Source: Dyella sp. RRB7
GTDB taxonomy: Bacteria > Pseudomonadota > Gammaproteobacteria > Xanthomonadales > Rhodanobacteraceae
Length of the DNA stretch: 64,000 nucleotides
Direction: 5' to 3'
Assembly (NCBI RefSeq): GCF_022761115.1
Contig: NZ_JAKWJS010000003.1
Location: 124,001 to 188,000, forward strand
Shown here: piece by piece, positions 28,588 through 43,627 of the stretch
Layout of the letters: every line of letters begins with the position of its first letter
How positions within the stretch are numbered: position 1 is the stretch's first letter
Position numbers and translations under genes: made by a program
Notes under the pieces: model-generated
Seen by the model: only the letters and a program-made list of their open reading frames with translations
Told to the model about the DNA's origin: nothing
Databases searched by the model: none

Positions 28588-28673
28588 GCCGGTGTGGCGG
28601 AATGGTAGACGCGGTGGACTCAAAATCCACTGGCAGCGATGTCGTGTAGGTTCGAGTCCTATCACCGGTACCA
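28588..28673 (+). tRNA. leuX: tRNA-Leu (anticodon CAA)
   Basis: 86-nt class II tRNA with a long variable arm. Acceptor GCCGGTG pairs with CACCGGT (G-U at the first pair), the anticodon stem-loop is GTGGA-CTCAAAA-TCCAC (CAA, reads UUG), the T-loop is GTTCGAGTC, and CCA is encoded. Its 3' end is the probable integration site of the element that follows. Confidence 0.95.
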
Positions 28674-28674
28674 A
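28658..28674 (+). other. Putative attL core in the 3' end of tRNA-Leu
   Basis: CCTATCACCGGTACCAA within the T-arm and acceptor stem of tRNA-Leu. The sequence CCTATCACC-TACCAA recurs at 43613-43627 with the GG missing. The integrase gene begins 186 nt further on, the usual geometry for tRNA-targeting elements. Confidence 0.55.
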
Positions 28675-28716
28675 GCAAACGTTTCAGGACGTCCCATAGA
28701 GTCCAAGGAACGTAGG

Positions 28717-28744
28717 AAAAGCCCGCAAATATGCGGGTTTTTTT
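28717..28744 (+). terminator. Intrinsic terminator after tRNA-Leu
   Basis: CCCGCA-AATA-TGCGGG hairpin (28722-28737) preceded by AAAA and followed by seven T. It ends tRNA-Leu transcription before the integrase. Confidence 0.88.
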
Positions 28745-28757
28745 ATGCCCGCTCGCT

Positions 28758-28816
28758 CCATGGTGTCCATACCGTACCATGGAATCTCACCCTCTTTGGG
28801 GGTATATCTAGGGGTA
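28758..28816 (+). promoter_or_regulatory. Left-end integrase arm sites and inverted repeat
   Basis: CCATGGT (28758-28764) and ACCATGG (28776-28782) form a 7-bp inverted repeat. Next comes GGGGGTATATCTAGGGGTA (28798-28816), present with one mismatch at the other end of the element (43546-43564), plus an inverted ATACCCCC at 28850-28857 next to the integrase start. Repeated GGGGTA motifs flanking a P4-type integrase are plausible arm-type binding sites. Confidence 0.55.
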
Positions 28817-28859
28817 TCAGGGGCATGCAGCCCTCTCCTTGATTACCGGATACCCCCAC

Positions 28860-30098
28860 ATGCCGCCGATCACCGACATCGCGCTGCGCAAAGCAAAACC
28901 TCGGGACAAGCCCTACAAGATGGCGGTGGGCAATGGCCTCTATCTGCTCATCAACCCAACCGGGTCGAAGCTCTGGCGCTGGAAGTACCGCGTTGCCGGC
29001 AAAGAGAAACTGCTGGCGCTCAGCGCCTATCCCACCTTTTCTCTGCAGGACGCCCGCCAGCGCTGCGAGGAAGAGCGCCGACGCCTGGCGCTGGGCGAAG
29101 ACCCCAGTGAAACGCGCAAGGCACAGAAGATGGCCAAGACGCGCGCCGACGTGATCGCAGCAGATACCTTCGAACGCGTCGCACGCGAATGGATGGCGTG
29201 GCGGGAGTCCCGGGGCGATACCGCGGAGACCACAGCATCGAAGGACCGCTGGCGCCTGGAGTCGTACCTCTTCCCTCACATCGGCCAGCGCCCCATCACC
29301 GAGATCACCGCCCTCGAGCTTCGCGACGTGCTGAAGAAGGCCGAGGACGCCGGCAAGCGCGAGACCGCCAGCCGAGTGAAGATCAACGCAGGCCAGGTGT
29401 TCCGCTGGGCCGTCCTCGAGGGACGCACACATAGCGACATCACCGCCAGCCTGCGTGGCCTCTTCACGACGCCCAAGCCGACCCACCGCGCCACCATCAC
29501 CGACCCTAAGCAGATCGGCGAGCTCCTGCGCGCGATCGAGGGCTACACCGGGCAATTTGTCACCCTGTCCGCACTGAAGCTCGCGCCGCTCGTGTTCGTG
29601 CGCCCGGGGGAGCTGCGCCAGGCAGCGTGGAGCGAGTTCGATCTCGATCAGGCAATGTGGCGCATCCCCGGCGAGCGCATGAAGATGAAGGCCGCTCACC
29701 TGGTTCCGCTGTCGACACAGGCAGTCGAGGTGCTGCGCGAGCTACACAAGCTCACGGGCCACGGCCATTACGTGTTCCCCGGCGTTCGCACCGCCACCCG
29801 CCCGATGTCCGAGAACACCGTGAATGCTGCCCTCCGCGGTCTGGGCTACACGACAGAGCAGATGACTGGCCACGGCTTCCGCAGCATGGCAGCCACCCGC
29901 CTCAATGAGATGGGCTGGAACGCGGATGCGATCGAGCGCCAGCTCGCGCACGCTGAGTCCAACAAGGTCCGCGAGGCCTACACGCATGCCGCGCAGTATC
30001 TGGATGAACGTCGAGACATGATGCAGGCGTGGGCCGACTACCTGGATGGCTTGCGTGCTGGTGGTAACGTTGTGCCAATCCGTGCTCAGGCCGGATGA
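28860..30098 (+). CDS. int: Tyrosine integrase, P4/DUF4102 type
   Basis: 412-aa site-specific recombinase. The N-terminal DUF4102 arm-binding domain (LTD-like start ITDIALRKAKPRDKPYKM) precedes a SAM-like core-binding domain and the catalytic domain. Catalytic residues: R248 (RPGELR), H338-R341 (GHGFR), H364 (LAH) and probably Y374 (REAYTHA). ATG 28860 follows directly after an inverted GGGGGTA site. It is adjacent to tRNA-Leu, its likely target. Confidence 0.95.
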   Translation: MPPITDIALRKAKPRDKPYKMAVGNGLYLLINPTGSKLWRWKYRVAGKEKLLALSAYPTFSLQDARQRCEEERRRLALGEDPSETRKAQKMAKTRADVIAADTFERVAREWMAWRESRGDTAETTASKDRWRLESYLFPHIGQRPITEITALELRDVLKKAEDAGKRETASRVKINAGQVFRWAVLEGRTHSDITASLRGLFTTPKPTHRATITDPKQIGELLRAIEGYTGQFVTLSALKLAPLVFVRPGELRQAAWSEFDLDQAMWRIPGERMKMKAAHLVPLSTQAVEVLRELHKLTGHGHYVFPGVRTATRPMSENTVNAALRGLGYTTEQMTGHGFRSMAATRLNEMGWNADAIERQLAHAESNKVREAYTHAAQYLDERRDMMQAWADYLDGLRAGGNVVPIRAQAG

Positions 30099-30125
30099 CC
30101 AGCAACGCAACAGGGGACAATCAGG

Positions 30126-30530
30126 ATGAATATTCCTTCTGATCGGCAGATCTTTGAGGCCGTCTACGCCATGTATGTCAGTGACTACCTGGTGCAAGAG
30201 CACGAACAGACGCAACGCAGGGTGTATTTCCCAATCGACGTCGCGGCAGTAGCGAAGAAGCTACGCTGCAGTACGCATATCCTGTTCGGTCGGCTCTACC
30301 ACGACCTTGCGAAAAGGTACGACCCCGCAACAGAGCCAAATGTCAGCGGCGCCGTATTCCTGATCCAAGCAGGTTCTGACAGGCACTGCATCCACTTCCC
30401 CTACATGGTTGCCATCCTCGCAGGCCTACGAGAGCAACGTAGGGTCCAGGTATATACGTGGGCCATATCGCTCGCGGCCCTTGCCCTTTCGGCAGCCAGC
30501 CTTCTGGTCAGCCTGGCCAATAGGCATTGA
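30126..30530 (+). CDS. Small protein with C-terminal membrane helix, unknown function
   Basis: 134 aa, starting MNIPSDRQIFEAVYAMYVSD with an AGGGGAC ribosome-binding site. The body is soluble and helical, with a winged-helix-like feel (AAVAKKLRCSTHILFGRLYHDL), and it ends in one hydrophobic helix (WAISLAALALSAASLLVSLA). The family is not recognised. Its place next to the integrase marks it as element cargo. Confidence 0.6.
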   Translation: MNIPSDRQIFEAVYAMYVSDYLVQEHEQTQRRVYFPIDVAAVAKKLRCSTHILFGRLYHDLAKRYDPATEPNVSGAVFLIQAGSDRHCIHFPYMVAILAGLREQRRVQVYTWAISLAALALSAASLLVSLANRH

Positions 30531-30562
30531 TGCAGTGTCAGGGCGAGCGGCTGCAATTCGCA

Positions 30563-30652
30563 GGGCGAAATTCCCGGCTGCATTTGAGGAGGGCGAATTT
30601 CCCTGAATTTATCGTGTTCTGACAATGGCAGTTGTCAGAGGTCGATAAATTC
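30563..30652. repeat. Nested inverted and direct repeats (possible operator or cis-acting site)
   Basis: GGGCGAAATTCCC (30563-30575) and GGGCGAATTTCCC (30591-30603) are near-identical direct repeats. They are followed by GAATTTATCG (30605-30614) and its perfect reverse complement CGATAAATTC (30643-30652). Between these arms lies a second inverted repeat TGACAA (30620-30625) and TTGTCA (30632-30637). The region is non-coding and unusually AT-rich for this window. Confidence 0.7.
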
Positions 30653-30789
30653 CCTGTTTTAATCGTCGCCGGGGGCTCCCCCCAAAAAACCGACCGCGCC
30701 AACCCTTTGGAATTGCAGCGAAACTTCAGTGGCGAGTAGCAAATGGCGCTGTTAGGCTGAAACCACCGACCCAAACGGAGGTAACAGAC

Positions 30790-31008
30790 ATGCGCAACCG
30801 CATCAGAGAACTGACGAGAGGCGACAAGGTGCTCTGCCTGATCGAGATCTCGCACGACGCCTATCCGGAGAATCGCCAGTACGTGACCGAGGTTCATCAG
30901 ATCCTCCCCGGCGGGAAAAGAACGCGGGGGGTTTGGGACAGCAGCACTTCGTACGCCGATCCCGAGGAAGCGTGGCGCAAGGGCCAGCAGCATTTCGACG
31001 ATCACTGA
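30790..31008 (+). CDS. Hypothetical 72-aa protein
   Basis: Starts MRNRIRELTRGDKVLC with a very good ribosome-binding site (GGAGGTAACAGAC before ATG). It is a compact alpha/beta protein with GGKRTRGVWDSSTSYADPEEAW. Family not recognised. The strong translation signal and the element context support a real gene. Confidence 0.65.
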   Translation: MRNRIRELTRGDKVLCLIEISHDAYPENRQYVTEVHQILPGGKRTRGVWDSSTSYADPEEAWRKGQQHFDDH

Positions 31009-31088
31009 CGCCGTGGCGCCGTACCGCTGCTTGCGTGGTGCGACCTATGGTTCGACCATTGGTCACTATAAGGTCGGGGAGACCACGC

Positions 31089-31682
31089 ATGGCAAAGGCT
31101 CCTGTAGACGCGCGTGATCGGACGCTCGGCCTCTATTCGATCGACGACTTGTACAAGAAGTTGTTGTGGGAGTTCGGCGAATTTGAGCGACTGTCCCAGG
31201 GAGACCTGTCGCCCAATCTCCCTGCCTGTTATATGGCCCAGAATGCGGCCGCGACAGCGTGGCATATGGGTGACTGGCTTTCGGCCGAGATCGACGCGCT
31301 CGGGCTTTGGGTTTCGGTTTCCACGCTCACTGGGAGGTCGCTGAAGAGGCGGCAAGATCTCCAGAGCTGGATGAGGGAGAACCTTGGACTTCTCGCCTGC
31401 GAGCAGATTGCCGATGCGACGAAGCATGCCCAGCTCTTTGCCTGGGTACATCTCCCTGGCTTTTCCACCGAAACCAAGTTCTACAACTTCTATGGCGAAG
31501 TCGATGCCGGCGGAGTCGTCACGGCCGTGCATCACTACGAAGAAGCCACCACGCCGATACCGAAAGTGGTTCTCATGGAGGGGACTCACCGCGGCATCTA
31601 TGAACTTGCACCGCTACTTGAGAGCTCCATCTCTTGGTGGAACGATCTACTTGGCACCATACGTTACTCGCAGGGCAAGTGA
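31089..31682 (+). CDS. Hypothetical 197-aa protein
   Basis: Starts MAKAPVDARDRTLGLYSID, with GGGGAGA upstream. It is a soluble, mixed protein with many aromatic residues (LLWEFGEFERL, AATAWHMGDWLSAEIDALGLW, SISWWNDLLGTIRY) and no signal peptide. It resembles conserved proteins of unknown function found on integrative elements, but I cannot name a family. The last gene of the left plus-strand block. Confidence 0.6.
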   Translation: MAKAPVDARDRTLGLYSIDDLYKKLLWEFGEFERLSQGDLSPNLPACYMAQNAAATAWHMGDWLSAEIDALGLWVSVSTLTGRSLKRRQDLQSWMRENLGLLACEQIADATKHAQLFAWVHLPGFSTETKFYNFYGEVDAGGVVTAVHHYEEATTPIPKVVLMEGTHRGIYELAPLLESSISWWNDLLGTIRYSQGK

Positions 31683-31715
31683 GATCGGGCTACCTCCGTG
31701 ACCAGCGCAACCCCA

Positions 31716-32153
31716 TCACCTACGCTGGTTCATCGCCCACTGGTCGACCTCGGACTTTTTCCACGAACGGGTAATCGGGTTCTGCTTCGGGAAGTCCGGC
31801 CTGCAGGCCACGCGCTCGAGGAAGCCACGGCGGTTTGGTGCACCCTTCGGCGTCACCATGCCCAGAAAGACCGCGCAAGCGTCGGCGCTCAACCAGCGGT
31901 CGCCGGCGACCAGGGCGGCGACCATCGTTATCGTTTCGGCATCCGCCATTGCACGTCCGCGCTGCCCACCAGCGTCATGGCCACCTCGATCCATCTCGCC
32001 ACCCCGGCTTGTAATCGGAGACTCTTTCTTCACCGCAGCAATCGCTTCACGCGCAGCCCGTTCCGCCGCCAGATACTCATCCACCGCCACTTCCGCCAAC
32101 GCACGTACGAGTCGCTCCATAGCGATCGACGGCATATTCGAACCCGGCTTCAT
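31716..32153 (-). CDS. Excisionase/AlpA-like DNA-binding protein
   Basis: 145-aa protein on the minus strand. The C-terminal half is a winged HTH of the MerR/Xis type: RWLSADACAVFLGM, then FLERVACRPDFPKQ and SWKKSEVDQWAMNQ, matching the pattern of excisionase domains with a FPxP-like turn and a terminal RxxEVxxW. The N-terminal half is helical. It faces the integrase cluster and overlaps no other gene, so it may act as Xis or as a transcription regulator. An internal start at MERLVRAL is possible. Confidence 0.6.
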   Translation of the reverse strand: MKPGSNMPSIAMERLVRALAEVAVDEYLAAERAAREAIAAVKKESPITSRGGEMDRGGHDAGGQRGRAMADAETITMVAALVAGDRWLSADACAVFLGMVTPKGAPNRRGFLERVACRPDFPKQNPITRSWKKSEVDQWAMNQRR

Positions 32154-32269: not shown

Positions 32270-32351
32270 TCCTGCAGTCGCCGCAAAATCGGCGACCAGG
32301 CGTGAGAACCTGATACCTACTAGGCGCAACGGCGCCTATGGCGCTTTTTTT
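32270..32351 (+). ncRNA. C4 antisense RNA-like leader RNA
   Basis: An RNA ending at an intrinsic terminator (GCGCC-TAT-GGCGC then seven T, 32332-32351) contains GTGAGAACC (32302-32310) and CCTACTAGG (32316-32324). Both are complementary to downstream segments GGTTTCTCAC (32426-32435) and CCTAGTAGG (32415-32423). A competing hairpin TAGGCGC/GCGCCTA (32321-32338) overlaps the terminator. This layout, an RNA upstream of a short conserved pseudo-ORF (Icd/Ash-like, MVGVQGSHALAGF), is that of P1/P7 C4 antisense RNA. The 5' end is estimated. Confidence 0.55.
32332..32351 (+). terminator. Intrinsic terminator within the C4-like region
   Basis: GCGCC-TAT-GGCGC followed by TTTTTTT. It overlaps the alternative hairpin TAGGCGC/GCGCCTA (32321-32338), so the two structures exclude each other. 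Confidence 0.75.
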
Positions 32352-32414
32352 GTGCCCGTTGCGTTATGCCCGCTTTATGGTGGGCGTGCAGGGCAGCCAT
32401 GCGCTGGCCGGTTT

Positions 32415-32435
32415 CCTAGTAGGCCGGTTTCTCAC
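32415..32435 (+). promoter_or_regulatory. Target sequences complementary to the C4-like RNA
   Basis: CCTAGTAGG and GGTTTCTCAC, complementary (the second with one bulged T) to the two segments at 32316-32324 and 32302-32310. They lie in the mRNA leader upstream of the 32498 gene, where pairing could block translation of the small leader frame or trigger termination. Confidence 0.5.
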
Positions 32436-32497
32436 CCCTGCACGTCCGCCACCCTGCCGTAATGGCGCGGTGGACAACCAACTGCGGAGGGCTGCAT

Positions 32498-32827
32498 ATG
32501 AATGCTCGTTCGAATACTGCCATCGCCGATGAGTTCTTCACGCTCAATGGGCGCTATCTCATCGATCCCTCGTCCGCGGCCAAAGATCTGGCGATTGATG
32601 CTTCATGCTTGCTGGACGGTGTGATTCACACGGTACACGCGATCATTGACGGTCTCTCGGACAAAGGGAGCGACATGACCGCCAACGTACAGCGACAAGT
32701 GCCTGCGATGCTGTACGGGTTGGTCTACCAGCTCGAGATGGCCCAGCGCATCACTGGATCGCTCGAGCGCGCCACATTCGCCGATCAATCCAGTGGCCCG
32801 TCTTCACTGGAGGTGCATCATGAGTAA
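32498..32827 (+). CDS. DUF3077/DUF6124-like small phage protein
   Basis: 109 aa, starting MNARSNTAIADEFFTLNG with GCGGAGGG upstream. The helical core DLAIDASCLLDGVIHTVHAI and AMLYGLVYQLEMAQRITGSL resembles the DUF3077 type of small proteins common in pseudomonad and xanthomonad prophages. Function unknown. It is the first real gene behind the C4-like leader and overlaps the next gene by 8 nt. Confidence 0.6.
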   Translation: MNARSNTAIADEFFTLNGRYLIDPSSAAKDLAIDASCLLDGVIHTVHAIIDGLSDKGSDMTANVQRQVPAMLYGLVYQLEMAQRITGSLERATFADQSSGPSSLEVHHE

Positions 32828-33275
32828 GAGGCCAGAGAACATTGGTACTGCAGCCGCCATCCCGACCGAGGTTTTCATGAACGCTCCTGAGAACTCAGCT
32901 TGCGCGCTTACCGTGCTTGGCAACACGGTGAACAACATGGGTTACGCGGGGCACGGCATCAGTCATCCCCACTCTCCGCACCGCATCAAGGCCTTTACCG
33001 TGCGCGGCAACTCCATGGCCCCGCGCCTCTGCGAAGGTGACACGGTGTATGTAGACATCGAGGACACGGCACCCGCGGATGGTGAGATCTTTGCCGTGAT
33101 CGTCCATGGGGAAACGCAGATAAAGCAGATCGAGCTACGTATGGACGGGCTCCACATCGTGAGCCTGGCCTATCCGAATCGACCGGACATCGTTCCGCCG
33201 GATAGGATGCATACGCTCCATATCGCTGGCCGCGTGGCTGGCGCCATCAAGCTCAGGAAGACTCAAGACCTGTAG
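32820..33275 (+). CDS. S24/LexA-like peptidase-domain protein without HTH
   Basis: 151-aa protein beginning MSKRPENIGTAA. The LexA-type autoprotease fold is evident: RGNSMAPRLCEGDTVYVD carries the catalytic Ser, and the downstream TQIKQIELRMDG supplies the Lys. The N-terminal 60 residues do not form an obvious HTH, unlike CI or LexA. It could be an UmuD-like or anti-repressor-like switch protein of the element. It overlaps the preceding gene by 8 nt. Confidence 0.75.
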   Translation: MSKRPENIGTAAAIPTEVFMNAPENSACALTVLGNTVNNMGYAGHGISHPHSPHRIKAFTVRGNSMAPRLCEGDTVYVDIEDTAPADGEIFAVIVHGETQIKQIELRMDGLHIVSLAYPNRPDIVPPDRMHTLHIAGRVAGAIKLRKTQDL

Positions 33276-33392
33276 CCATCGGCGACCACACCGCCAGCTG
33301 ATCACTCATGCCGCGCCTAGGACGGCCATCCGAAAACCGGGCACCTTCCCCGGCTGGCGCGGCACCTTATCGAAGGGCGCAAAGGTGTGCGC

Positions 33393-34553
33393 ATGGCAGT
33401 CCAATCGCTCTCCGATTACTTGTCTCTCGCGGAGACATTGGAAGCCCTCGGTGTAACGAAAGGCAACTTCTGTCGAGCCATTGAAGAGGGAAAGGTGACT
33501 CTACCCGCCTATCTTCGCTCAGGCCTCCAGCCGTTTCTTGCCGACTTCCTGTCTGGCCTCTTTCACGAGCCGGACAGCGACAAGATGAACTTCGAGGTAG
33601 CGGAATACCTAGGTCGTGACAGGACCCGCGGCGGTCACCAGCTGCTGTCCGACCTCTTGGATACCCGCAAGGATGGAAAGGAGTGGAGTAGCCGCCACGG
33701 TCTTCGCGCGAAGCTCCACCTGCTCAAGCCTTGGGAAGGTTGGTTCATTGCCTTCCCTCACAGTCCGCCATGGAGCGATTGGCGGAACACTGCAGGGCTC
33801 AGTGGCACCGAGTGCGTGATTCACCCTGAGCAGCTCGGTGACGACGATGTGTCTGTCGAAGGCTTGCTGCTGAATCACATGCAGCCAGTTGGCCCAGATG
33901 ACCCGCACTTTCCACACTTTGCGCTCTCCGGCACGGTCCGCCTGACGCCCGACACATTGCTCCGCTGGGCACGATCTGGACGCTTTGCCAGCCCCGTACG
34001 AGTGACGCCGCCATCGTGGTGGGCCAGCGAGGGCACGCTTATCCCGTGGACGCCTCAGGGCACCCCCAAGAACTACTTCGCCCTGCGGTACCCAACGACC
34101 GAGGGCTATACGGACATGCCCGCCACCAGCCTCCAGGTCGTACCTATCCATGGCTGGCATGACACACCTGCCGATGATGACCTGCTATTCCGCAGAGAAG
34201 ACGTCGAGGTCTTGCAGGGTGGGACGACAGGGGTTGCAATGGCCGGAGCCTTGTCGATCGCGGACAGTCGGCCTACCGACGCAACCGTCCTTCCCGGACA
34301 TAGCGGGCGCAGACAGGACGCTATAGCCCGAGAGATCGAGGTCGCTATTGCGCGCATGGAGAACGGTGGTACGCGCGCGAGCATTAATCAGCACACCGTG
34401 ATGGCCGAACTCGTCCAGCGCGCGGGCACAACGGGTTGCTGCATCACTGAAGTGGCGGACGGCGGTAAGGCTGTCATTTGGCTAGACGATGAAGGGCAAC
34501 AGCAAAAGCTGACCAAGGAAGCACTGAAGAAGCGCCTGCAACGCCGTCCCTGA
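33393..34553 (+). CDS. Large hypothetical protein of the element
   Basis: 386 aa, starting MAVQSLSDYLSLAETLEALG, with AAAGG 7 nt upstream (an in-frame GTG at 33387 is an alternative). The N-terminal part reads like a small HTH (LGVTKGNFCRAIEEGKVTLP). The C-terminal 90 residues (ARMENGGTRASINQHTVMAELVQRAG...KEALKKRLQR) look like a second helical domain. No family recognised; similar long proteins precede AlpA and primase genes in satellites and prophages. Confidence 0.6.
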   Translation: MAVQSLSDYLSLAETLEALGVTKGNFCRAIEEGKVTLPAYLRSGLQPFLADFLSGLFHEPDSDKMNFEVAEYLGRDRTRGGHQLLSDLLDTRKDGKEWSSRHGLRAKLHLLKPWEGWFIAFPHSPPWSDWRNTAGLSGTECVIHPEQLGDDDVSVEGLLLNHMQPVGPDDPHFPHFALSGTVRLTPDTLLRWARSGRFASPVRVTPPSWWASEGTLIPWTPQGTPKNYFALRYPTTEGYTDMPATSLQVVPIHGWHDTPADDDLLFRREDVEVLQGGTTGVAMAGALSIADSRPTDATVLPGHSGRRQDAIAREIEVAIARMENGGTRASINQHTVMAELVQRAGTTGCCITEVADGGKAVIWLDDEGQQQKLTKEALKKRLQRRP

Positions 34554-34680
34554 GGGACGCGATTGGGTCGCGAAGGGACACGACCGGGACGCCATCGGGA
34601 CACGACAGGGACGCTTGTTGCGCGATCTCGAATGTGTGGCATTTGGTTCATCCACATCACAACTGACGTGGAGCGCCACC

Positions 34681-34917
34681 ATGCAAACCCATGCCGTCTC
34701 ACAGCCCGCCGTAACGTCTCCTCCCCCGCCCAGCCTGCTTCGCATCAGCGACGTGCAACGCCGTACCGGCCTCAGCCGCGGCACGATCTATCGCTTGGTG
34801 GCCGCCGGCGAGTTCCCGCGTCAGATCCGCCTCACCGAAGCGACTACGGCCTGGGTCGAGTCCGAAGTGACGTTCTGGATCGAAAGCCGCATCGCCGCCA
34901 GCAAGGCGGCGCAGTGA
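34681..34917 (+). CDS. alpA: AlpA-family transcriptional regulator
   Basis: 78-aa protein. The MerR-like HTH is LLRISDVQRRTGLSRGTIYRL followed (residues about 40-58) by EFPRQIRLTEATTAWVESEV, the standard AlpA pattern. In P4-like elements and islands AlpA activates excision genes. Its TGA overlaps the next ATG (TGATG), opening a run of coupled genes. Confidence 0.85.
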   Translation: MQTHAVSQPAVTSPPPPSLLRISDVQRRTGLSRGTIYRLVAAGEFPRQIRLTEATTAWVESEVTFWIESRIAASKAAQ

Positions 34918-35225
34918 TGAGCTGCCGCCAGAAACGCCAACGCCCGGCTGGCACCGGGCGTCAGGGCAAAGCTAAGGATCTTCCGTCACTCAACGATACC
35001 ACCGCTAGCGCCCAGCGTGCGCGATTGCTGGCGGCATTGAAGCACAAAGCTATCGACACCATCACTATCCGCCGACATCTATCCATCCTTATGCCGGCAG
35101 CGCGCATAAAGGAGCTGCGGGATCAGGGGCACCGCATCGTCACGGCGCGTGTCGGCCGATACGACGATCAAGGACGCCCGCACCGCAACGTTGCGCTGTA
35201 CACGCTTGTTGGGGGCGCGAAATGA
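34917..35225 (+). CDS. HTH domain protein of the primase operon
   Basis: 102 aa. The conserved stretch ARLLAALKHKAIDTITIRRH and LSILMPAARIKELRDQGHRI is the HTH_39-like fold often encoded before phage primases. The N-terminal part is basic (MSCRQKRQRPAGTGRQGKAK) and may bind DNA. It is coupled to both neighbours (TGATG upstream, ATGA downstream). Confidence 0.7.
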   Translation: MSCRQKRQRPAGTGRQGKAKDLPSLNDTTASAQRARLLAALKHKAIDTITIRRHLSILMPAARIKELRDQGHRIVTARVGRYDDQGRPHRNVALYTLVGGAK

Positions 35226-35554
35226 ACCGCCTCACCGCTCTCTTCCAGTCCAAGCGCAAGGCCGCCAGCGAAAACACTTATGACCGTGCACGCCGGCGCT
35301 ATCTACGGAACGGCATGACCGCAGACATGGCAGACCTTCTGGTCACTATGGCCAAGGTCCTGGACATGCCGCCTGACGAACGCAACACGTCCCAGGCTGG
35401 GCTGGCGCTGCAGGCCCGCTACCGTGCGTACTACCTCATGGCGGAAAACGACTTCGCTGCCATTGCGGACAACCGCGCCTTTGCCACGTTCAAGCGGGAG
35501 CTCGATCGGCTCAACCAGAAGGCAGTGGCCGCGGCAATGGAGCTGCAGGCATGA
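35222..35554 (+). CDS. Hypothetical 110-aa protein of the primase operon
   Basis: MNRLTALFQSKRKAASENTY, then a helical protein (DMADLLVTMAKVLDMPPDER and the following coiled segment). Coupled by ATGA overlaps to both neighbours. Family not recognised; conserved placement suggests an accessory role in replication. Confidence 0.6.
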   Translation: MNRLTALFQSKRKAASENTYDRARRRYLRNGMTADMADLLVTMAKVLDMPPDERNTSQAGLALQARYRAYYLMAENDFAAIADNRAFATFKRELDRLNQKAVAAAMELQA

Positions 35555-36326: not shown

Positions 36327-37698
36327 CACCAATGCTACGCATGCGGACTTCGATGCATATGCCGACGGCCACGCGGATCACTCCCGGATGCACCTGGTGA
36401 CACAGGACGTCATCGAGGACGACACCCCACCGGAACGCCCGCTAGCGGCGGCGATGGCGCGCGCGATGCGGCCCTTCACTGCAGATGAGCTGGAGAATGC
36501 CCAAGGAGCTCACCCGCACGCCTTCATGGCAGGAGACGCTGGCCTATTCCCGATCGGGGAAGTGGCCGTCGTGGCCGCCCCGGGGCGTGAGGGCAAGACC
36601 TTTGCCCTCATGGCGATCGCTGCAGCCTACGCCCGCGGGAAGCGCCTCCATGGACTTACACCGGTGCCTGACCAGCAGGCAATCATCTACAGCGCGGAAG
36701 ACGACCGGGTGCAGTACGCCCGCAAACTCGCGGCTCTGCGCTGGAAGCACGGCGAGGTCACAGACGGTGCTACCTGGTGGGAACACATCATCGTCCCCGA
36801 TCTTGAGAGTCCCGAGCTCGTGGAGTGGCGCGAACTGGTCAAGGTCATGGATCGACGCCCCTGCGCCGGGCCGGCCGTGAACGCGATCATCAATGCGCTG
36901 CAGCCGTCGATGAACTCTTCGGTGCCGCCCGGCCTGCTGATCTTCGAGACCGCCAGCACGCTCAATGAGGCGGACGAGGACAATGCTGGGCTGAAGGTAC
37001 TGGTGGGTGCACTGAAGAAGATCGCCAAGGCACTCGACGTCGCGGTCGTGCTCGTCCATCACACCAGCCAGGCCGCAGGCTCCAACCTCTCCACCCTCAG
37101 CATCGGCACCGCCGATATCCGAGGCGCCACCGCGCTGGTGTACAACGCGCGGCAATGCTTCCTCCTGGTCAACCTGGGCAGCGACGACAATCCGCACCCG
37201 GACGCCGATGCCAGAACGTTGCTGCGGAAGATGGTGTCGCCCGGAGTTCCTACACGCGTCTCTGCCCTGATTTGCCTGGACAGCAGCAAGGCCCTCGACC
37301 CTCCCCCGATCTATCTCCGATGGATATCCACGCCGTACGGGCCGGCACTCGAGGAGATCACGCCGCCGGCATCACTGAGCGGTCTGCGCTGGCGCAAAGT
37401 GCTCGCCGCGCTCAACGGGAAGCGTGCAGAGGTTCGCGAGGACGCCAAGGGCGCCAAGGAGCAGGCGAAGGTCGCGGAAGCCGTGGCGGCCGTCAGGAAG
37501 CTCAACAGCAAGGATGTTCCCGCCAGCGCCAAACAAGTGTCGCTCGCTGCCGGGCATACCAAAGCCTGGGCGAAGCCTTACCTCGACTTGGCCGAGGAAC
37601 AGGGCCTGGTCACCACGTCCATGGCAAAGATCGCCAACACCGGTAGCGACACCGTTGTGTATCACGCAAAGCAGTGGGCAGATGGAGATAGCGAGTGA
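36316..37698 (+). CDS. RepA-like AAA/RecA-fold replicative helicase
   Basis: 460-aa ATPase, GTG start. Walker A is APGREGKTF (about residues 88-96), Walker B LLIFETASTLNE, and a further conserved HHTSQAAG (sensor-like) and RGATALVYNARQ. This is the AAA_25/RepA family used by plasmids such as RSF1010 and by many phages. The C-terminal 130 residues are helical with a probable winged HTH (KDVPASAKQVSLAAGHTKAW). It ends the coupled operon and is followed by iterons, consistent with a replication initiator or helicase. Confidence 0.82.
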   Translation: MHADTNATHADFDAYADGHADHSRMHLVTQDVIEDDTPPERPLAAAMARAMRPFTADELENAQGAHPHAFMAGDAGLFPIGEVAVVAAPGREGKTFALMAIAAAYARGKRLHGLTPVPDQQAIIYSAEDDRVQYARKLAALRWKHGEVTDGATWWEHIIVPDLESPELVEWRELVKVMDRRPCAGPAVNAIINALQPSMNSSVPPGLLIFETASTLNEADEDNAGLKVLVGALKKIAKALDVAVVLVHHTSQAAGSNLSTLSIGTADIRGATALVYNARQCFLLVNLGSDDNPHPDADARTLLRKMVSPGVPTRVSALICLDSSKALDPPPIYLRWISTPYGPALEEITPPASLSGLRWRKVLAALNGKRAEVREDAKGAKEQAKVAEAVAAVRKLNSKDVPASAKQVSLAAGHTKAWAKPYLDLAEEQGLVTTSMAKIANTGSDTVVYHAKQWADGDSE

Positions 37699-38011
37699 AT
37701 CTGCCTAGTGCTCTCACAAACCGCATAACCAAGCGCCCTGGACTAGGCAGACGACTAGGCAGATTGTTTTCTGCTCACTGCTACAGGAAGGGACGAGGCG
37801 GAAAAGGTGCGCCTGCAAGGGCACTTTCCGTCCGTTCCTCCGCACCTGTACGACTGGGTGGTAGGCAGATTTCTATAGGGGTGTGGGGGATCTGCCTACC
37901 CAGTCAGGGGCGCCTTCGGCATCCACTCCTGCGCTGCATTTCACGACTCGAACGACATACCCAGACGGCGGCGGCCATCGGGACGCAGCCAATCATCTAC
38001 GGAGCCACTTC
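37699..38011. other. 313-nt non-coding region with iterons, putative origin
   Basis: Lies between the helicase and the tape-measure gene. A short open frame crosses it but has no ribosome-binding site or family-like composition. It holds five copies of TAGGCAGA (see repeat entry). Before the next gene lies CGGAG as ribosome-binding site. It may be both the origin and the scar of lost morphogenesis genes. Confidence 0.55.
37700..37899. repeat. Five iterons of TAGGCAGA, both orientations
   Basis: Copies at 37700-37707 (minus), 37744-37751 (plus), 37756-37763 (plus), 37863-37870 or nearby (plus) and 37891-37898 (minus). The flanking base often extends the match to CTAGGCAGA. By chance an 8-mer would rarely occur even once in 200 bp. 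Iterons next to RepA-type helicases usually mark an origin or autoregulatory operator. Confidence 0.75.
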
Positions 38012-40033
38012 ATGACCACCGTTGTGGAAGCGCTGTTCATCACGCTCGGGCTCGACACCCGGGACTTTGACAAGAAGAAGGAAGGCGTCACCACGTCACT
38101 GACGAAGCTGGGCGAGGCCTCGGACAAACAGACTAAGACCATTACCGAGAGCGGTAAGAAGGCGGCCAATGCCTTCTCCATGCTCAAGATCGAGGTGCTT
38201 GGCGCGCTGGCGGCCTTCGGCATGACCACCAGCTTCAAGGACTTCATCACCACCAACATCAACGGGCAGGCGGCGCTCGGCCGCCTCTCGGCGAACCTCG
38301 GCATGTCTACGCAGAAACTCGAGGCGTGGAAGCTGGCGGCGAAGGAAATGGGCCAGTCCGGCGAGGACGCCGTCGGCGCGCTACAGTCGGTGGCTAAGGG
38401 CGTGGCAGAGGCGCGCATTACCGGGCACTCGGCGCTGACCGATGCTTCCCGACGCTTCGGCTTCGCGATCGACACCAAGGACAACGAGCAGACGCTGATC
38501 AACATAAGCCGGCGCATGGCGCAAACCCATGACCGGCAGCAGGCGCTGATGATCGCCGAGGCCGCCGGCGTTGGGAACATCGCCAACCTGCTCCTGCAAG
38601 GTCCGGACAAGCTCCAGGCGCAGCTCGCGCACACCATGAGCCTGACGGGCGCGGCCACCAAGGAAAGCACGGAGCAGGCGGCCAAGCTTCAGGCGCAATG
38701 GGCGGACCTGCAGGAACGCTTCCAGCAGGTCGGTGAGCGCGTCTTTGCGCGACTTGAGCCGGTGCTCGCCCGGCTCGGTGAACGCCTGGCCAACTGGCTG
38801 GACAAGGTGGATTGGCAGAAGGTCATCGATGGCATCAGTCGGTTCATCGACAAGGTCAACGAGGTGGTCAAGGAGATGGGCGGGTGGAAGACTATCGCCG
38901 AGATCCTCGGCGGCGTGCTGGCGCTGAAGCTCTTGTCTCCCCTATTAAATCTGGTCGGCGTCTTCGGCCGGCTGATTCCCTTGCTCGGCTCCGCCACCGC
39001 CGGCGCCACCGCAATGGCCGGGGCCTTCTCGACGATCGGCGCTACGGTTGGCCTGGCGGCCGCAGCCTTCGCTGGCTGGAAGCTGGGCGAATGGATCTCC
39101 AACAACATGTCCCCGCAGCTGCAAGAACAGGTCGGCCGATTCACGGCCACCCTGGCAGCACTGGCGGGGGACAAGGATGCGCAACAAGCCATCAACCAGG
39201 AGAAGAAGTCCAGCGCAATCGACGCAGCGCGTAACGACCCAAACGTCAGCGACGATGTGAAGCGGGCCGCGGCGGGAAAGTCGAGCCTGAGCGATCCGGC
39301 CATCATCCGTCTCCTGGCCATGCACGAGCGAGCACGAGCCAAGGCATCTGGGCAGCCTGAGGCGGGTCCACTGATCGGCTCGGACTTCATGGGCAAGTTC
39401 GACCCGATGCATTCGCGCACCTTCACGGGGCCAAATGGCAACGCCACGTTGTTCGGCATGCTGGAGAACAAGTATGGCTTGCCGGCGGGAATGCTGGCCA
39501 AGAAGTTCGAGACGGAATCGGGCAATGGCACGCACCTTATCTCTAGAGCTGGCGCGCTCGGACCCATGCAGTTCATGCCGGCGACAGCAACAGAGTTCGG
39601 CCTGACCACCGGCCTCAATGGCACGGTCATGGACTTGGACAAGAGCGCAGAAGCCGCAGCGAAGTACATGGCACAGCTCCACAAGCAGTTCGGCGACTGG
39701 GACAAGGCACAGGCGGCCTACAACTGGGGCGGTAGCAACCTCAGCAGGGCGATCGCTGCGTACGGCGACAAGTGGCTGGAGCACGCGCCATCCGAGACGC
39801 AGGCCTACGTCAACAAGGGCTATCTGAAGTCGGTGCCGATGTCGCCTCAGACGCCGGCCATGTCGGCCGCGCAGCGCTCGGGCGGCAACACGGACAACAG
39901 CAGCTCAGTGTCGATTGGCACGCTCAACGTGAACGCGCCGAAAGCGACTGACGCCAATGGTGTCGCCAAGGGCATGCAGTCTGCACTGCGCTCGAACTCA
40001 CTCGTTAACCCCTTCACCAAGGGGCTTACCTGA
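38012..40033 (+). CDS. Phage tail tape-measure protein with lytic transglycosylase domain
   Basis: 673 aa, starting MTTVVEALFITLGLDTRDFD. The long helical body (LTKLGEASDKQTKTITESGK and onward) and two central hydrophobic stretches (TIAEILGGVLALKLLSPLLN; GATVGLAAAAFAGWKLGEWI) are tape-measure features. Residues about 470-620 form an SLT transglycosylase domain: catalytic E502 in KKFETESGNG, GALGPMQFMPATATEFG and AQAAYNWGGSNLSRAIAAYG. It would set tail length and locally open peptidoglycan. It stands without upstream tail-tube or sheath genes. Confidence 0.85.
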   Translation: MTTVVEALFITLGLDTRDFDKKKEGVTTSLTKLGEASDKQTKTITESGKKAANAFSMLKIEVLGALAAFGMTTSFKDFITTNINGQAALGRLSANLGMSTQKLEAWKLAAKEMGQSGEDAVGALQSVAKGVAEARITGHSALTDASRRFGFAIDTKDNEQTLINISRRMAQTHDRQQALMIAEAAGVGNIANLLLQGPDKLQAQLAHTMSLTGAATKESTEQAAKLQAQWADLQERFQQVGERVFARLEPVLARLGERLANWLDKVDWQKVIDGISRFIDKVNEVVKEMGGWKTIAEILGGVLALKLLSPLLNLVGVFGRLIPLLGSATAGATAMAGAFSTIGATVGLAAAAFAGWKLGEWISNNMSPQLQEQVGRFTATLAALAGDKDAQQAINQEKKSSAIDAARNDPNVSDDVKRAAAGKSSLSDPAIIRLLAMHERARAKASGQPEAGPLIGSDFMGKFDPMHSRTFTGPNGNATLFGMLENKYGLPAGMLAKKFETESGNGTHLISRAGALGPMQFMPATATEFGLTTGLNGTVMDLDKSAEAAAKYMAQLHKQFGDWDKAQAAYNWGGSNLSRAIAAYGDKWLEHAPSETQAYVNKGYLKSVPMSPQTPAMSAAQRSGGNTDNSSSVSIGTLNVNAPKATDANGVAKGMQSALRSNSLVNPFTKGLT

Positions 40034-40122
40034 TATGCGGGTCCCCCACTCGCTTTCTTCGCGCCAGATAGACGATTCGCGCCCGTCCACGCATCTGCCC
40101 GCCATCAACAGGAACTGACCTC

Positions 40123-41055
40123 ATGAGCTTCACCAAGCGAAACCTCACCTTTGAGATCCAACTCAATAAGGGTCCCGATTTCAAGCCAGGAGAGGACATC
40201 CCACTGACCTTCGACAACGGCGCCACGAAACTCTCTCTTTTAGGCTTGCGCAGCCGCGTGACGGCACAGTCCTGCATTGGTGGCGACGTCGCATATGCCG
40301 GGCGCGCCCTTATCCAGATCTGGGGTATGAAGCCCGCGGACATGGCGAAGCTGTCCACCGTGGGTTTTGACCAGGCCAAGATTGGCTGGAACAACATCAA
40401 GATATTTGCTTCCGATGATGGATCTCTGGCGCCGTCCACTGTTTTCGACGGCGGGATCTTCGACGCCCGGATCAACTACAACGCCATGCCGGACGTCTCG
40501 CTCGAGCTGGAATGCTGGTCTTCGATGAACGAACAAATTCAGGCCATTCCCGGAACCAGCGCGCCTGGCGCTTCTGACGTAGCAGCCATGCTTCGTGGCA
40601 TCAGCGCCGCCTGCGTTCCACCGCTGGACTTCCTCGGCCCGGGCACCGATGCAGTGCTGGCTAACCATGCGGTCGGAGGCTCGCCCGCAGACCAGATCGA
40701 GGACATCTGCATAGCCGCCGGCATCTGCTACACGCTACAGGGCGGCAAGCTAACGGTATGGCCTAAAGAGCAAGCCATCGATGACTTGGTTATAACGACA
40801 GGCCCCGGCATGGGGTTGGTCGGGTTTCCGGAGTACAGGAGGCGCGCCATCGACATCACAATGGAGTTCAATCCCCAGGTCCAGCTCGGTCGACAGATCA
40901 CCATCAACACCGCGCCACACGTCCCCTCCGTTCCAGGCCTGCCCGGTACCTTCTGGCTGAACATTGTGGAGCATGACCTGTCCTGCGAGCTTCCCGATGG
41001 CCCGTGGTTTACCCATGCCACTGTCAGCGATCGGCAGATCGTGGGGAGGGTGTGA
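40123..41055 (+). CDS. Phage baseplate hub-like protein
   Basis: 310 aa, starting MSFTKRNLTFEIQLNKGPDF. It contains VTAQSCIGGDVAYAGRALIQ, typical of hub proteins that precede Gp138 spikes in contractile-tail phages, and a later domain with YTLQGGKLTVWPK (LysM/hub-like) and NEQIQAIPGTSAP. Overlaps the spike gene by 1 base (stop and ATG adjoin). The identification rests on order and motif style. Confidence 0.68.
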   Translation: MSFTKRNLTFEIQLNKGPDFKPGEDIPLTFDNGATKLSLLGLRSRVTAQSCIGGDVAYAGRALIQIWGMKPADMAKLSTVGFDQAKIGWNNIKIFASDDGSLAPSTVFDGGIFDARINYNAMPDVSLELECWSSMNEQIQAIPGTSAPGASDVAAMLRGISAACVPPLDFLGPGTDAVLANHAVGGSPADQIEDICIAAGICYTLQGGKLTVWPKEQAIDDLVITTGPGMGLVGFPEYRRRAIDITMEFNPQVQLGRQITINTAPHVPSVPGLPGTFWLNIVEHDLSCELPDGPWFTHATVSDRQIVGRV

Positions 41056-41801
41056 TGTCGGACAACAACGTCTTTTCCAACCTGGCTGCGTCAGGAAATG
41101 AGGCCGGCCAGTGGTCGTTCGCTTTCCGCGCCGCCATGGCGAAGATCCGCACCTGCATGCCAGTCCAGGTCATGGCCGTGCATGGTGGCGGCCTGGGTCC
41201 GGTAGGACGCGTCGACGTGCAGCCGCTGGTGCAGCAGACCGATAGCGCTGGCAACGTCGTATCGCTGCCGGTGCTATATGGGTTGCCCTATCTGCGCTGG
41301 CAGGGTGGTCAGAGTGCGGTGATTCTTGATCCTGCAGTGGGTGACGTCGGCCTGATGTGCTCTGCGGACCGCGATGTGTCTGCGGTCGTGGCCACGGCCA
41401 AGCTCTCGCCGCCCGGGTCCAATCGCCGCTTCAGCCTTGCCGATGGCTTCTACGTCGGTGCCACGCTCAATGGCGCACCCACGCAGTACCTGCAATTCGA
41501 TCCCGCCGACGGCGTGACGCTGAACTCGCCGATGGCTATCAAAGCCCAGATCGGTACCGACGCGGACGCCGCGCGCCTGGTCATGAACGCCTTAGGCCTC
41601 GTGCTTAGCTTCGGCGGCCACTCCATCACGATCAACAGCAGCGGCATTGCGATTTCCGGTGCGGTGATAGGCGACAGCTCGGCCACGTTCCAAGGCGAAG
41701 GCACGTTCAACGGTGGCCACACAGTTTCGCAGCATGAACATCCCGTCTCTGGTGTTCAGACCGGCTCGTCCACCGTCACCTCGCAGAAGCCGACAGGGTG
41801 A
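41055..41801 (+). CDS. Gp138-type baseplate spike protein
   Basis: 248 aa. The N-terminal domain MPVQVMAVHGGGLGPVGRVD, followed by YGLPYLRWQGGQSAVILDPA, matches the Gp138 N-terminal OB-like fold of membrane-piercing spikes. A repeated beta-helix tail follows, ending HTVSQHEHPVSGVQTG; such HxH tips bind a metal ion at the apex of the spike. It is the last tail gene present. Confidence 0.82.
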   Translation: MSDNNVFSNLAASGNEAGQWSFAFRAAMAKIRTCMPVQVMAVHGGGLGPVGRVDVQPLVQQTDSAGNVVSLPVLYGLPYLRWQGGQSAVILDPAVGDVGLMCSADRDVSAVVATAKLSPPGSNRRFSLADGFYVGATLNGAPTQYLQFDPADGVTLNSPMAIKAQIGTDADAARLVMNALGLVLSFGGHSITINSSGIAISGAVIGDSSATFQGEGTFNGGHTVSQHEHPVSGVQTGSSTVTSQKPTG

Positions 41802-41820
41802 CTGGCCAGGCATGCCGACG

Positions 41821-41975
41821 ATGATCCCCGACATCGCGCACGCGCGCGAAGACCTGGGGAAGGATGGAAGGCGCCATGATTACTCACATCGCGCGTACGC
41901 GCGTGCGCGCGAGCTTCCGTATAAAGGGAGGCCGCATGACTTTCCGCATCGCGCACGCGCGCGCGGGAACCGCCG
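41821..41975 (+). repeat. Three tandem imperfect repeats with repeated start codons and CG-alternating cores
   Basis: Units begin at ATG 41821, 41876 and 41936 (spacing 55 and 60 nt). Each has ATGAy, about 6 bases, then CATCGCGC and an alternating CGCGCG run, and the second and third are preceded by Shine-Dalgarno-like GGAAGGCGCC or GGGAGGCCGC. The units would encode short Arg/His/Ala-rich peptides. Confidence 0.65.
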
Positions 41976-42025
41976 CACCTGAGCTATTTGGAGCAATCAG
42001 CTACGCTCGTACAGCCGGAGGTTGA
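41876..42025 (+). CDS. Possible 49-aa peptide from the tandem repeats
   Basis: Reads MITHIARTRVRASFRIKGGR, then MTFRIAHARAGTAAP and ends YARTAGG. GGAAGG precedes the ATG. It starts in the second repeat and an internal ATG at 41936 begins the third. A companion frame starting at 41812 gives another basic peptide (MPTMIPDIAHARED...). No family; coding status uncertain, and it overlaps the end of the convergent zinc-ribbon gene. Confidence 0.3.
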   Translation: MITHIARTRVRASFRIKGGRMTFRIAHARAGTAAPELFGAISYARTAGG

Positions 42026-43357
42026 TGGCTGCCCGCTGGCGGCCCCTTCTCTGTCAGACGTGGGTCCGGGGTTTACAGGCGCAGGAACAGTAGACGCCAC
42101 ACCGTACTTGGCACCGTCAAACTGCAGGAGCTGGGTTCTGTCCATGCTCTCCATGGACCCGTCGTCCTTTGCGTTGACTCCAGCAGATCTAAACTCGAGG
42201 TTTGGCCAGCCTTCGTGGCTCGCCTCGATTGCATGCAGCTCCCCCTTCCAGTTGGAGCATTTGTCCTTTTCGCAATAGCCGCTCCCCGTGGCATCGGTGC
42301 TAGTCGGCCCGTTCCATACGACCGCGACGCTACCGTTCACATCTGCGATAAGGGACCCATAGCTATCCACGACACCTTGACCGATGTCCGTTGCCGATAG
42401 GAATACCGCTGGGTGACTGCCCAAAGGAAAGAGCTCGGCAGTGCCTCCGAGCTTTCCATAAGCGCCAAACGTGGTGATGGCGTCACTCCAGGAGGTCATC
42501 ACCCAATTGCCTTGCTGCTTGGTAAGCACGGCAGAACTCAAAGAAACACCACACGCGTGACAATCGCCCGAAAGCGCGTAACTGACCAAGACAAAGCGGG
42601 AACTGGACGAGCCCACTGCGTACGGCGCTGAGGTGTAGACCAACTCTGGCCTGACGGGCTTCCCATCGCCGTTCACGCCCGGAGGAAGTTGCCGCAGCAC
42701 CGCATTGGCATCGAATGGGTCTGCGACAGCGACCTGCGGGGCCGCAGGACCCTGATGCGCCCCCGTCAGTCCCGAGTCGGTTGCCGCCTTACTCTGCGCA
42801 CCAGCTGTCGGCTCCTCGTACGGAGGCCGAGAATCAGCTTGGGCCGATCCATCCGATTCCCCAACGTTCACGATGTCCATGGAGCAAACATCGCTCCATG
42901 AGGAACCCGGCGCTTCACAGGTCTTGCCCACCGCGATCGATACATCTCGCTGAGCCGTGTCGTTTGGCCATACCCGACCAGAACAAAGCGGTCCGCTGTT
43001 GGCCGAGCCGCCCGTCTGATTGACCAGCTTGACCACCACGCACTGCGACCCCGGCGTCCATCCCGTGTTGGTGAACTGGCATTGCCCGTGACCTAGGCCA
43101 TTCACTTGGCAGCGCGCCTCAACGTGTTGGCCGATCTGAAGTGCGGGAACGAAGCACACCCCAAGCACCAGGCCAATAACCAAGACCGCGAACGACGATA
43201 GGGTGATGCTCACCGAACTCGACCGCTTCTTCTCCTCCCGATCCGCAGCAACCTTGAACGAACTCGGAGTGACCGCGATCGGCCGACCACACTTCGGGCA
43301 AGCCGGAGCCGCATCGCTAACGTCAGTCCCGCAATCAGGACACTTGATCAGAGCCAT
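41984..43357 (-). CDS. Zinc-ribbon membrane protein with secreted C-terminal domain
   Basis: 457 aa on the minus strand. The N-terminus is a zinc ribbon, MALIKCPDCGTDVSDAAP with a second CPKCGRP (four Cys), then one membrane helix (SSFAVLVIGLVLGVCFVPAL, about residues 53-75), then about 380 residues probably outside the membrane with many cysteines (SQCVVVKLVNQ, GDCHACGVS, GSGYCEKDKCSNW). This topology recalls bacterial zinc-ribbon/FHA-less sensors of unknown role. It is the element's terminal cargo; its base composition is lower in GC than the flanks. Confidence 0.65.
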   Translation of the reverse strand: MALIKCPDCGTDVSDAAPACPKCGRPIAVTPSSFKVAADREEKKRSSSVSITLSSFAVLVIGLVLGVCFVPALQIGQHVEARCQVNGLGHGQCQFTNTGWTPGSQCVVVKLVNQTGGSANSGPLCSGRVWPNDTAQRDVSIAVGKTCEAPGSSWSDVCSMDIVNVGESDGSAQADSRPPYEEPTAGAQSKAATDSGLTGAHQGPAAPQVAVADPFDANAVLRQLPPGVNGDGKPVRPELVYTSAPYAVGSSSSRFVLVSYALSGDCHACGVSLSSAVLTKQQGNWVMTSWSDAITTFGAYGKLGGTAELFPLGSHPAVFLSATDIGQGVVDSYGSLIADVNGSVAVVWNGPTSTDATGSGYCEKDKCSNWKGELHAIEASHEGWPNLEFRSAGVNAKDDGSMESMDRTQLLQFDGAKYGVASTVPAPVNPGPTSDREGAASGQPSTSGCTSVADCSK

Positions 43358-43545
43358 TTTCCCTCACCCCCTGTTGGTAGAACGGTCGTTACAAATCATC
43401 CGGCATAGTCTTCATCACTGACAGCCGGCGTTCCATCCACCATTCGGGCACTCCAGTGAGGGCGTGTAGCGGCCGTTCGGGACGATGTCAGTTGGCCAAT
43501 AACTGGCACTTATTAGCTAAGTCGCGTGGCAAGCGCCAGCGCGCC

Positions 43546-43564
43546 GGGGGTATATCTGGGGGTA
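43546..43564 (+). promoter_or_regulatory. Right-end integrase arm site
   Basis: GGGGGTATATCTGGGGGTA, one mismatch to the left-end copy at 28798-28816. Presence at both ends but nowhere else seen supports an integrase or excisionase binding role. Confidence 0.6.
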
Positions 43565-43612
43565 CATCCTCGAAAGCCCTCTACAAACCTCATCAGATAA
43601 GACTTTTCGCGA

Positions 43613-43627
43613 CCTATCACCTACCAA
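43613..43627 (+). other. Putative attR, degenerate copy of the tRNA-Leu 3' end
   Basis: CCTATCACCTACCAA equals the tRNA-Leu 3' end (28658-28674) with GG deleted. It lies 49 nt right of the arm-like site. Confidence 0.45.

Follow-up and report, generated by a model that had tools for sequence, protein, structure and literature searches.

To our knowledge, phage satellites were earlier viewed as taking the tails of their helper phages whole. Work of 2026 on the PLE satellites of Vibrio cholerae has broken this rule for the satellites of one pathogen. PLE1, PLE4 and PLE11, whose helper is the lytic phage ICP1, have been reported to build chimeric tails with their own tape measure protein (TMP), tail assembly chaperone (TAC) and hub, supported by deletion, blot, mass-spectrometry and electron microscopy data (PMC12987554). 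By blot and mass spectrometry, PLE11 particles were found to hold the PLE11 TMP and hub, with the helper counterparts excluded, and deletion of the PLE11 tmp gene reduced transduction by about 99.9% (PMC12987554). Predicted tmp genes have also been reported in putative satellites outside the Vibrionaceae and in cf-PICIs (Extended Data Fig. 10 of PMC12987554), and in a Pseudomonas helper-satellite pair a tail assembly protein I is encoded in the satellite (PMC4936722). A survey, shallow for most papers, of the literature on satellite tape measures, tail proteins, baseplate hubs and chimeric tails recognised no hub or spike in a satellite other than PLE. Here, we describe an element of approximately 15 kb in a 64,000-nt stretch of the Dyella sp. 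RRB7 genome (contig NZ_JAKWJS010000003.1, positions 124,001 to 188,000; hereafter, the window). Its gene and RNA content gives good support to its being a phage satellite of the AlpA/C4-RNA type, integrated in the chromosome, and with its own TMP, hub and spike it probably replaces the axial core of a contractile helper tail, the outer tail coming from the helper.

The likeness to PLE lies in a satellite-encoded TMP and, for PLE11, a hub, the helper supplying tube, sheath, fibres and the rest of the baseplate; for the window element, replacement of helper proteins is proposed by analogy. PLE has a TAC and the helper ICP1, and the main text of PMC12987554 does not mention a spike, whereas the window element has a spike, a backbone of C4 RNA, int-alpA RNA and AlpA, no recognised chaperone and no known helper. 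What is new relative to PLE is this AlpA/C4 backbone, the spike and the absence of two genes, Dit-like and plug, described below; the precedent of PLE and cf-PICIs lowers the novelty of the remainder. Some cf-PICIs have a predicted tape measure gene in common with the window, but cf-PICIs are capsid-forming and no capsid or packaging gene was found in the window element. With P4 and P4-like satellites, the element shares a tRNA-integrated integrase, AlpA, a C4-type antisense RNA, a replication module and an inferred dependence on a helper. P4-like satellites are defined by sid, psu and delta, the genes for capsid size, polarity suppression and late activation. Scans of the 18 open reading frames (ORFs) of the window element against Pfam and PHROGs found no Psu, Sid, Delta/Ogr or Ash family; the element carries tail-tip genes, and split CHC2 proteins plus an AAA_25 ATPase are found instead of the single large alpha primase-helicase of P4.

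In contractile phages, the TMP is a ruler that leaves the virion before the DNA, the hub a trimeric platform and the spike the puncturing tip. The window element encodes these in the following order:

38012-40033, forward strand: TMP of 673 amino acids (aa) with an SLT transglycosylase domain (phrog_2013, 7e-67; 82% identical to the TMP of phage contig L032).
40123-41055, forward strand: baseplate hub of 310 aa (phrog_196, 2e-36; PF22759; 69% identical to that of L032).
41055-41801, forward strand: central spike of 248 aa (PF18352, 1e-5; 83% identical to that of L032).

The PF18352 score of the spike (25.9 bits) is just under the cut-off of 26.1 and the spike has no PHROG match, while the SLT region of the TMP also matches PHROGs of lysis and internal virion proteins. 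The scans of the 18 ORFs detected no capsid or other head, portal, terminase or other packaging, tube, sheath, wedge, fibre or separate lysis family, and no TAC was recognised. An earlier note on this DNA, which had proposed that tail-tip genes are the only virion genes kept, was thus borne out. The same note had named inactivating mutations in the tail genes as evidence to the contrary; none is present, and all three ORFs are open.

Relatives of these proteins were found on four IMG/VR contigs, L032 to L035 (TMP 58-82%, hub 57-69% and spike 58-83% identical to the window). These contigs represent contractile phages with an E217/Pam3-type baseplate and carry, in addition to TMP, hub and spike, sheath, tube, chaperone, Dit-like, plug, gp25-like and gpJ-like genes (named by Pfam for L032 and by position for some). 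Between TMP and hub, L032 encodes a 241-aa protein with a Dit_like domain and a 106-aa Pam3_gp18 plug, and L033 to L035 also have two genes there; the window cassette has neither. At the DNA level, the window is 78% identical to L032 over TMP and 76% over most of hub plus spike; the two intervening genes are unmatched and homology restarts within hub. That the closest relatives might be full-length prophages, which had been raised as an objection to a satellite, therefore applies in part: the relatives of the tail genes lie on phage contigs, but no satellite RNA was found there with Rfam and the gene order differs. Since the TMPs of the window and L032 are of nearly equal size (673 and 669 aa), the idea that the cassette sets a different tail length was dropped.

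A DNA identity of about 76-78% to a phage could also mean that a fragment of a phage tail operon was acquired by the satellite in a recombination event, its genes being passengers or prophage remnants, and the confinement of this cassette to one genome and the lack of a helper of such tail type in the window genome are in line with this. Such a scar appears distinctly unlikely, as the three ORFs are open with low ratios of non-synonymous to synonymous substitution (dN/dS), homology to L032 resumes in hub with both intervening genes gone, the same two genes are absent from unrelated cassettes, and one clade of satellite hubs has diverged to approximately 60-73% identity yet remained open. A prophage that lost its morphogenesis genes, the alternative originally considered, is disfavoured by the open genes, by the low dN/dS against the phage relative and by the recurrence of similar gene sets with the same two genes missing.

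This recurrence was examined in the host family (Rhodanobacteraceae) and in viral contigs. Matches to phrog_196 were found at 23 places in 21 of 230 family genomes, and five of these places are satellites. Among the 13 non-satellite loci compared (genomes G146 and G191, with partial profile matches, were left out), ten have a TMP-sized gene separated from hub by two genes, of 193-255 aa and 101-105 aa; L180 is differently arranged, and L184 and L185 match another part of the phrog_196 profile. Prophages L081 and L043 also carry both intervening genes, which brings the total to 12 of 12 among family prophage modules with the usual gene order. From an IMG/VR search with a type-B hub alignment, the best 80 of 196 relatives were used, together with six contigs recovered with an AAA_25 alignment (none matching any tail query; a single AAA_25 query returned no relative among viral contigs). 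TMP followed by hub was found in 61 of these contigs, the remainder having been dropped as truncated, badly called or without tail genes. Between the two genes, 57 contigs have both Dit-like and plug, three have one that was recognised, and one (L193) has neither. A Dit-like and/or plug gene therefore lies between TMP and hub in 72 phage or prophage modules (60 of 61 contigs and 12 of 12 prophages). Both genes are absent from all three int-alpA satellites that have TMP and hub (the window, L041 and L082), compared with none of the 72 phage loci, a difference with a probability of 1.5e-5 if loci are assumed to be independent, which related sequences violate. The name Dit-like is backed by Pfam for L032 only; elsewhere it denotes similarity to the L032 gene or to the correspondingly placed gene of L081 and of three other prophages, and in family prophage loci it was often assigned by size and position alone. 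In a class-wide hub search (369 genomes), the hub part of the profile was matched in five genomes besides the window's, and five of the seven regions from these genomes show a plug and/or Dit-like gene (the others being L191 and L192; some contigs were badly called).

The exceptional contig L193 (5.8 kb) encodes a DnaB-like helicase, a 121-aa protein, TMP, hub and spike and is probably a fragment of a satellite; because this assignment is partly circular, L193 was excluded from the count of three. In the census, relatives of its 121-aa gene occur only in satellites L041 and L095. This small gene family lies beside tail cassettes (L041:12252-12827, L095:11104-11784 and L193:1422-1787) and has no PHROG assignment other than a weak phrog_6216 match in L193; a search of viral contigs with it returned only L193.

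Satellites of similar architecture were identified in other family genomes. A search of the 230 genomes with the AAA_25 protein (E 1e-15 or better) matched three beyond the window's own. Two of the loci, L040 and L041, belong to satellites that encode an integrase and AlpA together with C4, isrK and int-alpA RNAs. Each of them has a TMP downstream: in L040 it is 641 aa long and 60% identical to the TMP of prophage L043, and in L041 a hub is followed by a TMP of 612 aa. In the third, L042, the AAA_25 protein is 45% identical and the region is gene-dense and phage-looking. The int-alpA RNA gave 84 matches in 62 of the 230 genomes, or 83 loci once one double match was merged, with an integrase upstream in 66 of the 83 and, as found later, also in L082 and L118, though not in L107. 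A TMP and/or hub plus spike lies downstream of the RNA in at least nine of the 83 loci (the window, L040, L041, L082, L107, L118, L114, L116 and L117; the full prophage L081 was left out), a lower bound since 25 of 79 candidate large ORFs were scanned against PHROGs. C4 RNA is present in seven of these nine and was not found in L114 and L116. The int-alpA census is mixed and does not equal a pure list of satellites, as it includes the prophage L081 and as phages, too, can carry the RNA. The locus in another genus, L082, has an integrase at tRNA-Met, C4 and int-alpA RNAs, AlpA, a DnaC-like loader and TMP, hub and spike in tandem, with gaps of 1-2 nt and all ORFs open (loci were called with a simple codon-usage caller; two misplaced L082 starts were subsequently checked). 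Its three tail genes derive from another phage lineage than those of the window; BLAST likeness between the two TMPs is confined to 124 residues of the SLT region, at 35% identity.

Some candidates were not retained in the census. The TMP match in L083 is an SLT-type fragment of 152 aa and that in L119 lies upstream on the opposite strand, and neither was counted. A profile search of genome contigs with a TMP alignment yielded 33 loci with matches at residues 453-624, around the SLT domain, and was not used. The 929-aa protein of the int-alpA locus L132 (8948-11737) was rejected as a TMP, its nearest family being phrog_992, called a head protein; it also has lysin-type matches and is perhaps a podovirus-type ejection protein replacing the TMP.

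Phylogenetic analysis of 77 hubs placed L193, L082, L107 and L118 in one clade (SH-aLRT 99), paired L041 with phage L195 (96) and joined the window hub to that of phage L032 (91). Grouping all six satellite hubs was rejected by the approximately unbiased (AU) test (p-AU 1e-18). The tree and the AU tests point to at least two captures of hubs by satellites and probably three. Hubs of the four-member clade are approximately 60-73% identical and all open, with dN/dS of 0.08-0.14 (three of six pairs with computable dS), and their spikes show 0.07-0.27 (six pairs); for L107 against L118, the values are 0.08 for hub and 0.10 for spike. Cassettes of this clade follow three different replication modules, namely a DnaC-like loader, a primase-helicase and, in L193, the DnaB-like helicase; the cassette therefore behaves as a module.

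According to the mechanism that we propose, growth of a contractile-tailed helper in the cell would lead the satellite to excise and replicate. Head, tube, sheath, baseplate ring and fibres, and with them receptor binding, would be left to the helper. The satellite would contribute TMP, hub and spike as an axial core that determines the length of the tail, punctures the envelope and leaves the particle before the DNA. The Dit-like protein and the plug, as adapters around this core, would also be taken from the helper, and this would account for the absence of precisely these two genes from such satellites. The outcome would be a chimeric tail, and the element may in this manner redirect the tail of its helper, as had been suggested. 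One could guess that an ejection core of its own admits satellite particles where helper ejection proteins are blocked, for example in helper lysogens with superinfection exclusion.

Several observations weigh against this reading. The type-A cassette, that of the window, was found in 1 of 233 family genomes, the window's (four candidates scored per genome), so that the concern that the arrangement exists in a single genome stands for this cassette and not for the architecture, which occurs elsewhere with other cassettes. No other phrog_196 hub was found in the window's own genome, and hence no resident helper of such tail type was seen. Between TMP and hub of the window lie 89 nt with a weak terminator-like hairpin, no promoter-like site was found in 37500-43700 (1.3 expected), and the AlphaFold predictions for hub and spike had low confidence (pLDDT 51 and 44, respectively), so that the folds were not confirmed. 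The dN/dS values of the window against L032 (hub 0.16, spike 0.10, TMP 0.11) combine phage with satellite branches, and dS approaches saturation. Grouping of the five type-B satellite hubs was not rejected by the AU test (p 0.118), and a 99-aa gene of L041 is 49% identical to a gene in the structural region of prophage L081. Finally, in L107 and L118 a primase-helicase is followed by hub and spike but no TMP, and L040, L114, L116 and L117 have a TMP without a recognised hub. With the composition varying in these loci and in L041, an axial core kept as one unit is not universal. The TMP call is weakest for L117 (1391 aa; phrog_1533, 1e-13, with an unnamed family scoring higher).

The loci with hub and spike alone also fit an interference function, in which TMP, hub and spike are misfitting decoys that jam the tail assembly of the helper or of a competing phage; a partial set of tail genes could be dominant-negative, and satellite and prophage defences are known to act on tail assembly, examples being Tai (PMC11364771) and Rta (PMC12987554). 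We consider this unlikely, as a full TMP with an SLT enzyme domain and the retained hub-spike pairs exceed what a decoy needs, and as a possible tail assembly chaperone adjoins the TMP of L117 (phrog_1442, E 0.005, a weak match), similar to PLE, whose TMP enters particles. The SLT domain and the lack of a separate lysis gene in the element could, furthermore, suggest a stand-alone envelope-piercing or lysis device acting outside a virion. This seems highly improbable given that no tube, sheath or wedge gene was found that could drive contraction and that the cassette genes retain phage order.

The int-alpA RNA (RF02996), used here as a satellite marker, is also found in late operons of contractile phages, directly 3' of the tube gene (examples in phages and prophages are L197:6246-6309, L199:6361-6422, L200:6544-6608 and L081:5001-5070). 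It lies just after the tube gene in 21 of 50 IMG/VR tube-x-TMP junctions, and some phages have a further copy upstream, after a gene of approximately 340 aa. The nested helices of the RNA covary across 13 satellite and phage copies, and base-pairing of the loop region with the 3' end is possible in all 11 copies examined, a count for which no control was run. No int-alpA RNA was found in L032 to L035 or in those family prophages to which the model was applied, which limits the RNA link between satellites and phages to type-B phages. Since many type-B-related phages have the RNA beside the tube and TMP genes of the late operon, as it stands before alpA in satellites, shared control of tail-core synthesis at the RNA level is possible. 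Tentatively, AlpA/C4 satellites might thus be a modular class that has repeatedly captured the TMP-hub-spike core and discarded the docking adapters, forming chimeric tails with satellite penetration machinery, and the type-B satellites and phages may share int-alpA RNA control of the core; we regard this broader proposal as possible rather than likely.

The remaining features of the window element are as follows:

28588-28673, forward strand: tRNA-Leu(CAA), integration target, with attL in its 3' end (ARAGORN, Rfam, flank comparison).
28658-28675, forward strand: attL core CCTATCACCGGTACCAAG at the tRNA 3' end (sequence reading and comparison with G045 and G053).
28860-30098, forward strand: tyrosine integrase with arm-binding domain (PF00589, 6e-28; PF13356; phrog_1).
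30126-31682, forward strand: accessory ORFs of 134, 72 and 197 aa, no Pfam or PHROG family and no PADLOC match.
31716-32153, reverse strand: 145-aa helix-turn-helix (HTH)-type protein (weak phrog_668).
32277-32351, forward strand: isrK RNA (RF01394, 53 bits).
32373-32456, forward strand: C4 antisense RNA, immunity (RF01695, 66 bits).
32498-32827, forward strand: 109-aa ORF with relatives in satellites L082, L095 and L107 (locus comparison).
32820-33275, forward strand: S24/LexA-like peptidase regulator (PF00717, 1e-12).
33310-33377, forward strand: int-alpA RNA (Rfam, 65 bits), probably a pseudoknotted leader from nested-helix covariation and loop complementarity.
33393-34553, forward strand: 386-aa ORF after the int-alpA RNA, no Pfam or PHROG family.
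34615-34917, forward strand: AlpA regulator/excisionase (PF05930, 3e-15).
34914-35225, forward strand: winged-HTH protein (PF14090).
35222-35554, forward strand: 110-aa ORF, no Pfam or PHROG family.
35551-35859, forward strand: CHC2 zinc-finger primase-like protein (PF01807, 9e-10).
35856-36326, forward strand: second CHC2-type protein (phrog_6088, 4e-10; Pfam weak, 0.01).
36316-37698, forward strand: AAA_25 ATPase (PF13481; 61-63% identical to satellites L040 and L041), a probable RepA-like replication protein.
41984-43357, reverse strand: 457-aa zinc-ribbon protein, cargo (Pfam and PHROG scans).
43613-43628, forward strand: attR core CCTATCACCTACCAAG, end of the element (comparison with G045 and G053).

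The three RNAs each exceed the Rfam gathering score, and PADLOC found no match among eight accessory proteins. The integration, immunity and replication modules described by the earlier note are all represented, and the extent of 28588-43627 that it gave is correct to within one base, attR ending at 43628. Its reading of the element as a satellite is upheld by the regulatory and replication modules and by the defined attachment (att) ends; in addition, a relative has the site unoccupied and other genomes contain elements of the same architecture. In G053, of the same genus, the left flank aligns through the tRNA and the right flank picks up 54 nt on, at window position 43801, an element-free site; in G045, also of the same genus, the counterpart of window 43606-43737 continues directly from the tRNA 3' end. 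The overlap between these genomes defines the att core CCTATCACC(GG)TACCAAG, and the point at which G053 resumes means that 43629-43800 is present in the window and absent from G053. For L082 and L118, the stretches searched contained no exact att repeat of at least 13 nt.

A direct repeat, GGGGGTATATCT(A/G)GGGGTA, occurs near both ends of the element (28798-28816 and 43546-43564) and perhaps represents arm-type binding sites of the integrase. The window tRNA-Leu context (90% over 135 bp) is also found at L179:3224-3357 in G149, near the end of the tail genes of a contractile prophage, and phage and satellite may therefore share an attachment site. Among the other satellites, L116 (7506-11601), also found through its int-alpA RNA, combines a major head protein (phrog_10) with a different type of TMP and looks closer to cf-PICIs than the window element does; L102 and L148 also carry the phrog_10 head protein, and L124 does by similarity only. 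Satellite L095, in genome G069, has two glycine-rich genes of tail-fibre type (8921-11086), one of which has an 89% identical counterpart in the full prophage L081, located in the same genome. Could L095 be a fibre-swapping satellite?

The presence of TMP adjoining hub without a Dit-like or plug gene provides a signature for genomic searches. Taking into consideration that a gene set similar to that of PLE occurs in unrelated satellites of another family, tail remodelling looks like a general satellite strategy, which raises the question of which part of the tail decides the entry of satellite DNA. The rod-and-tip genes of these related satellites suggest that satellites may replace the injection core of the virus particles that they hijack.

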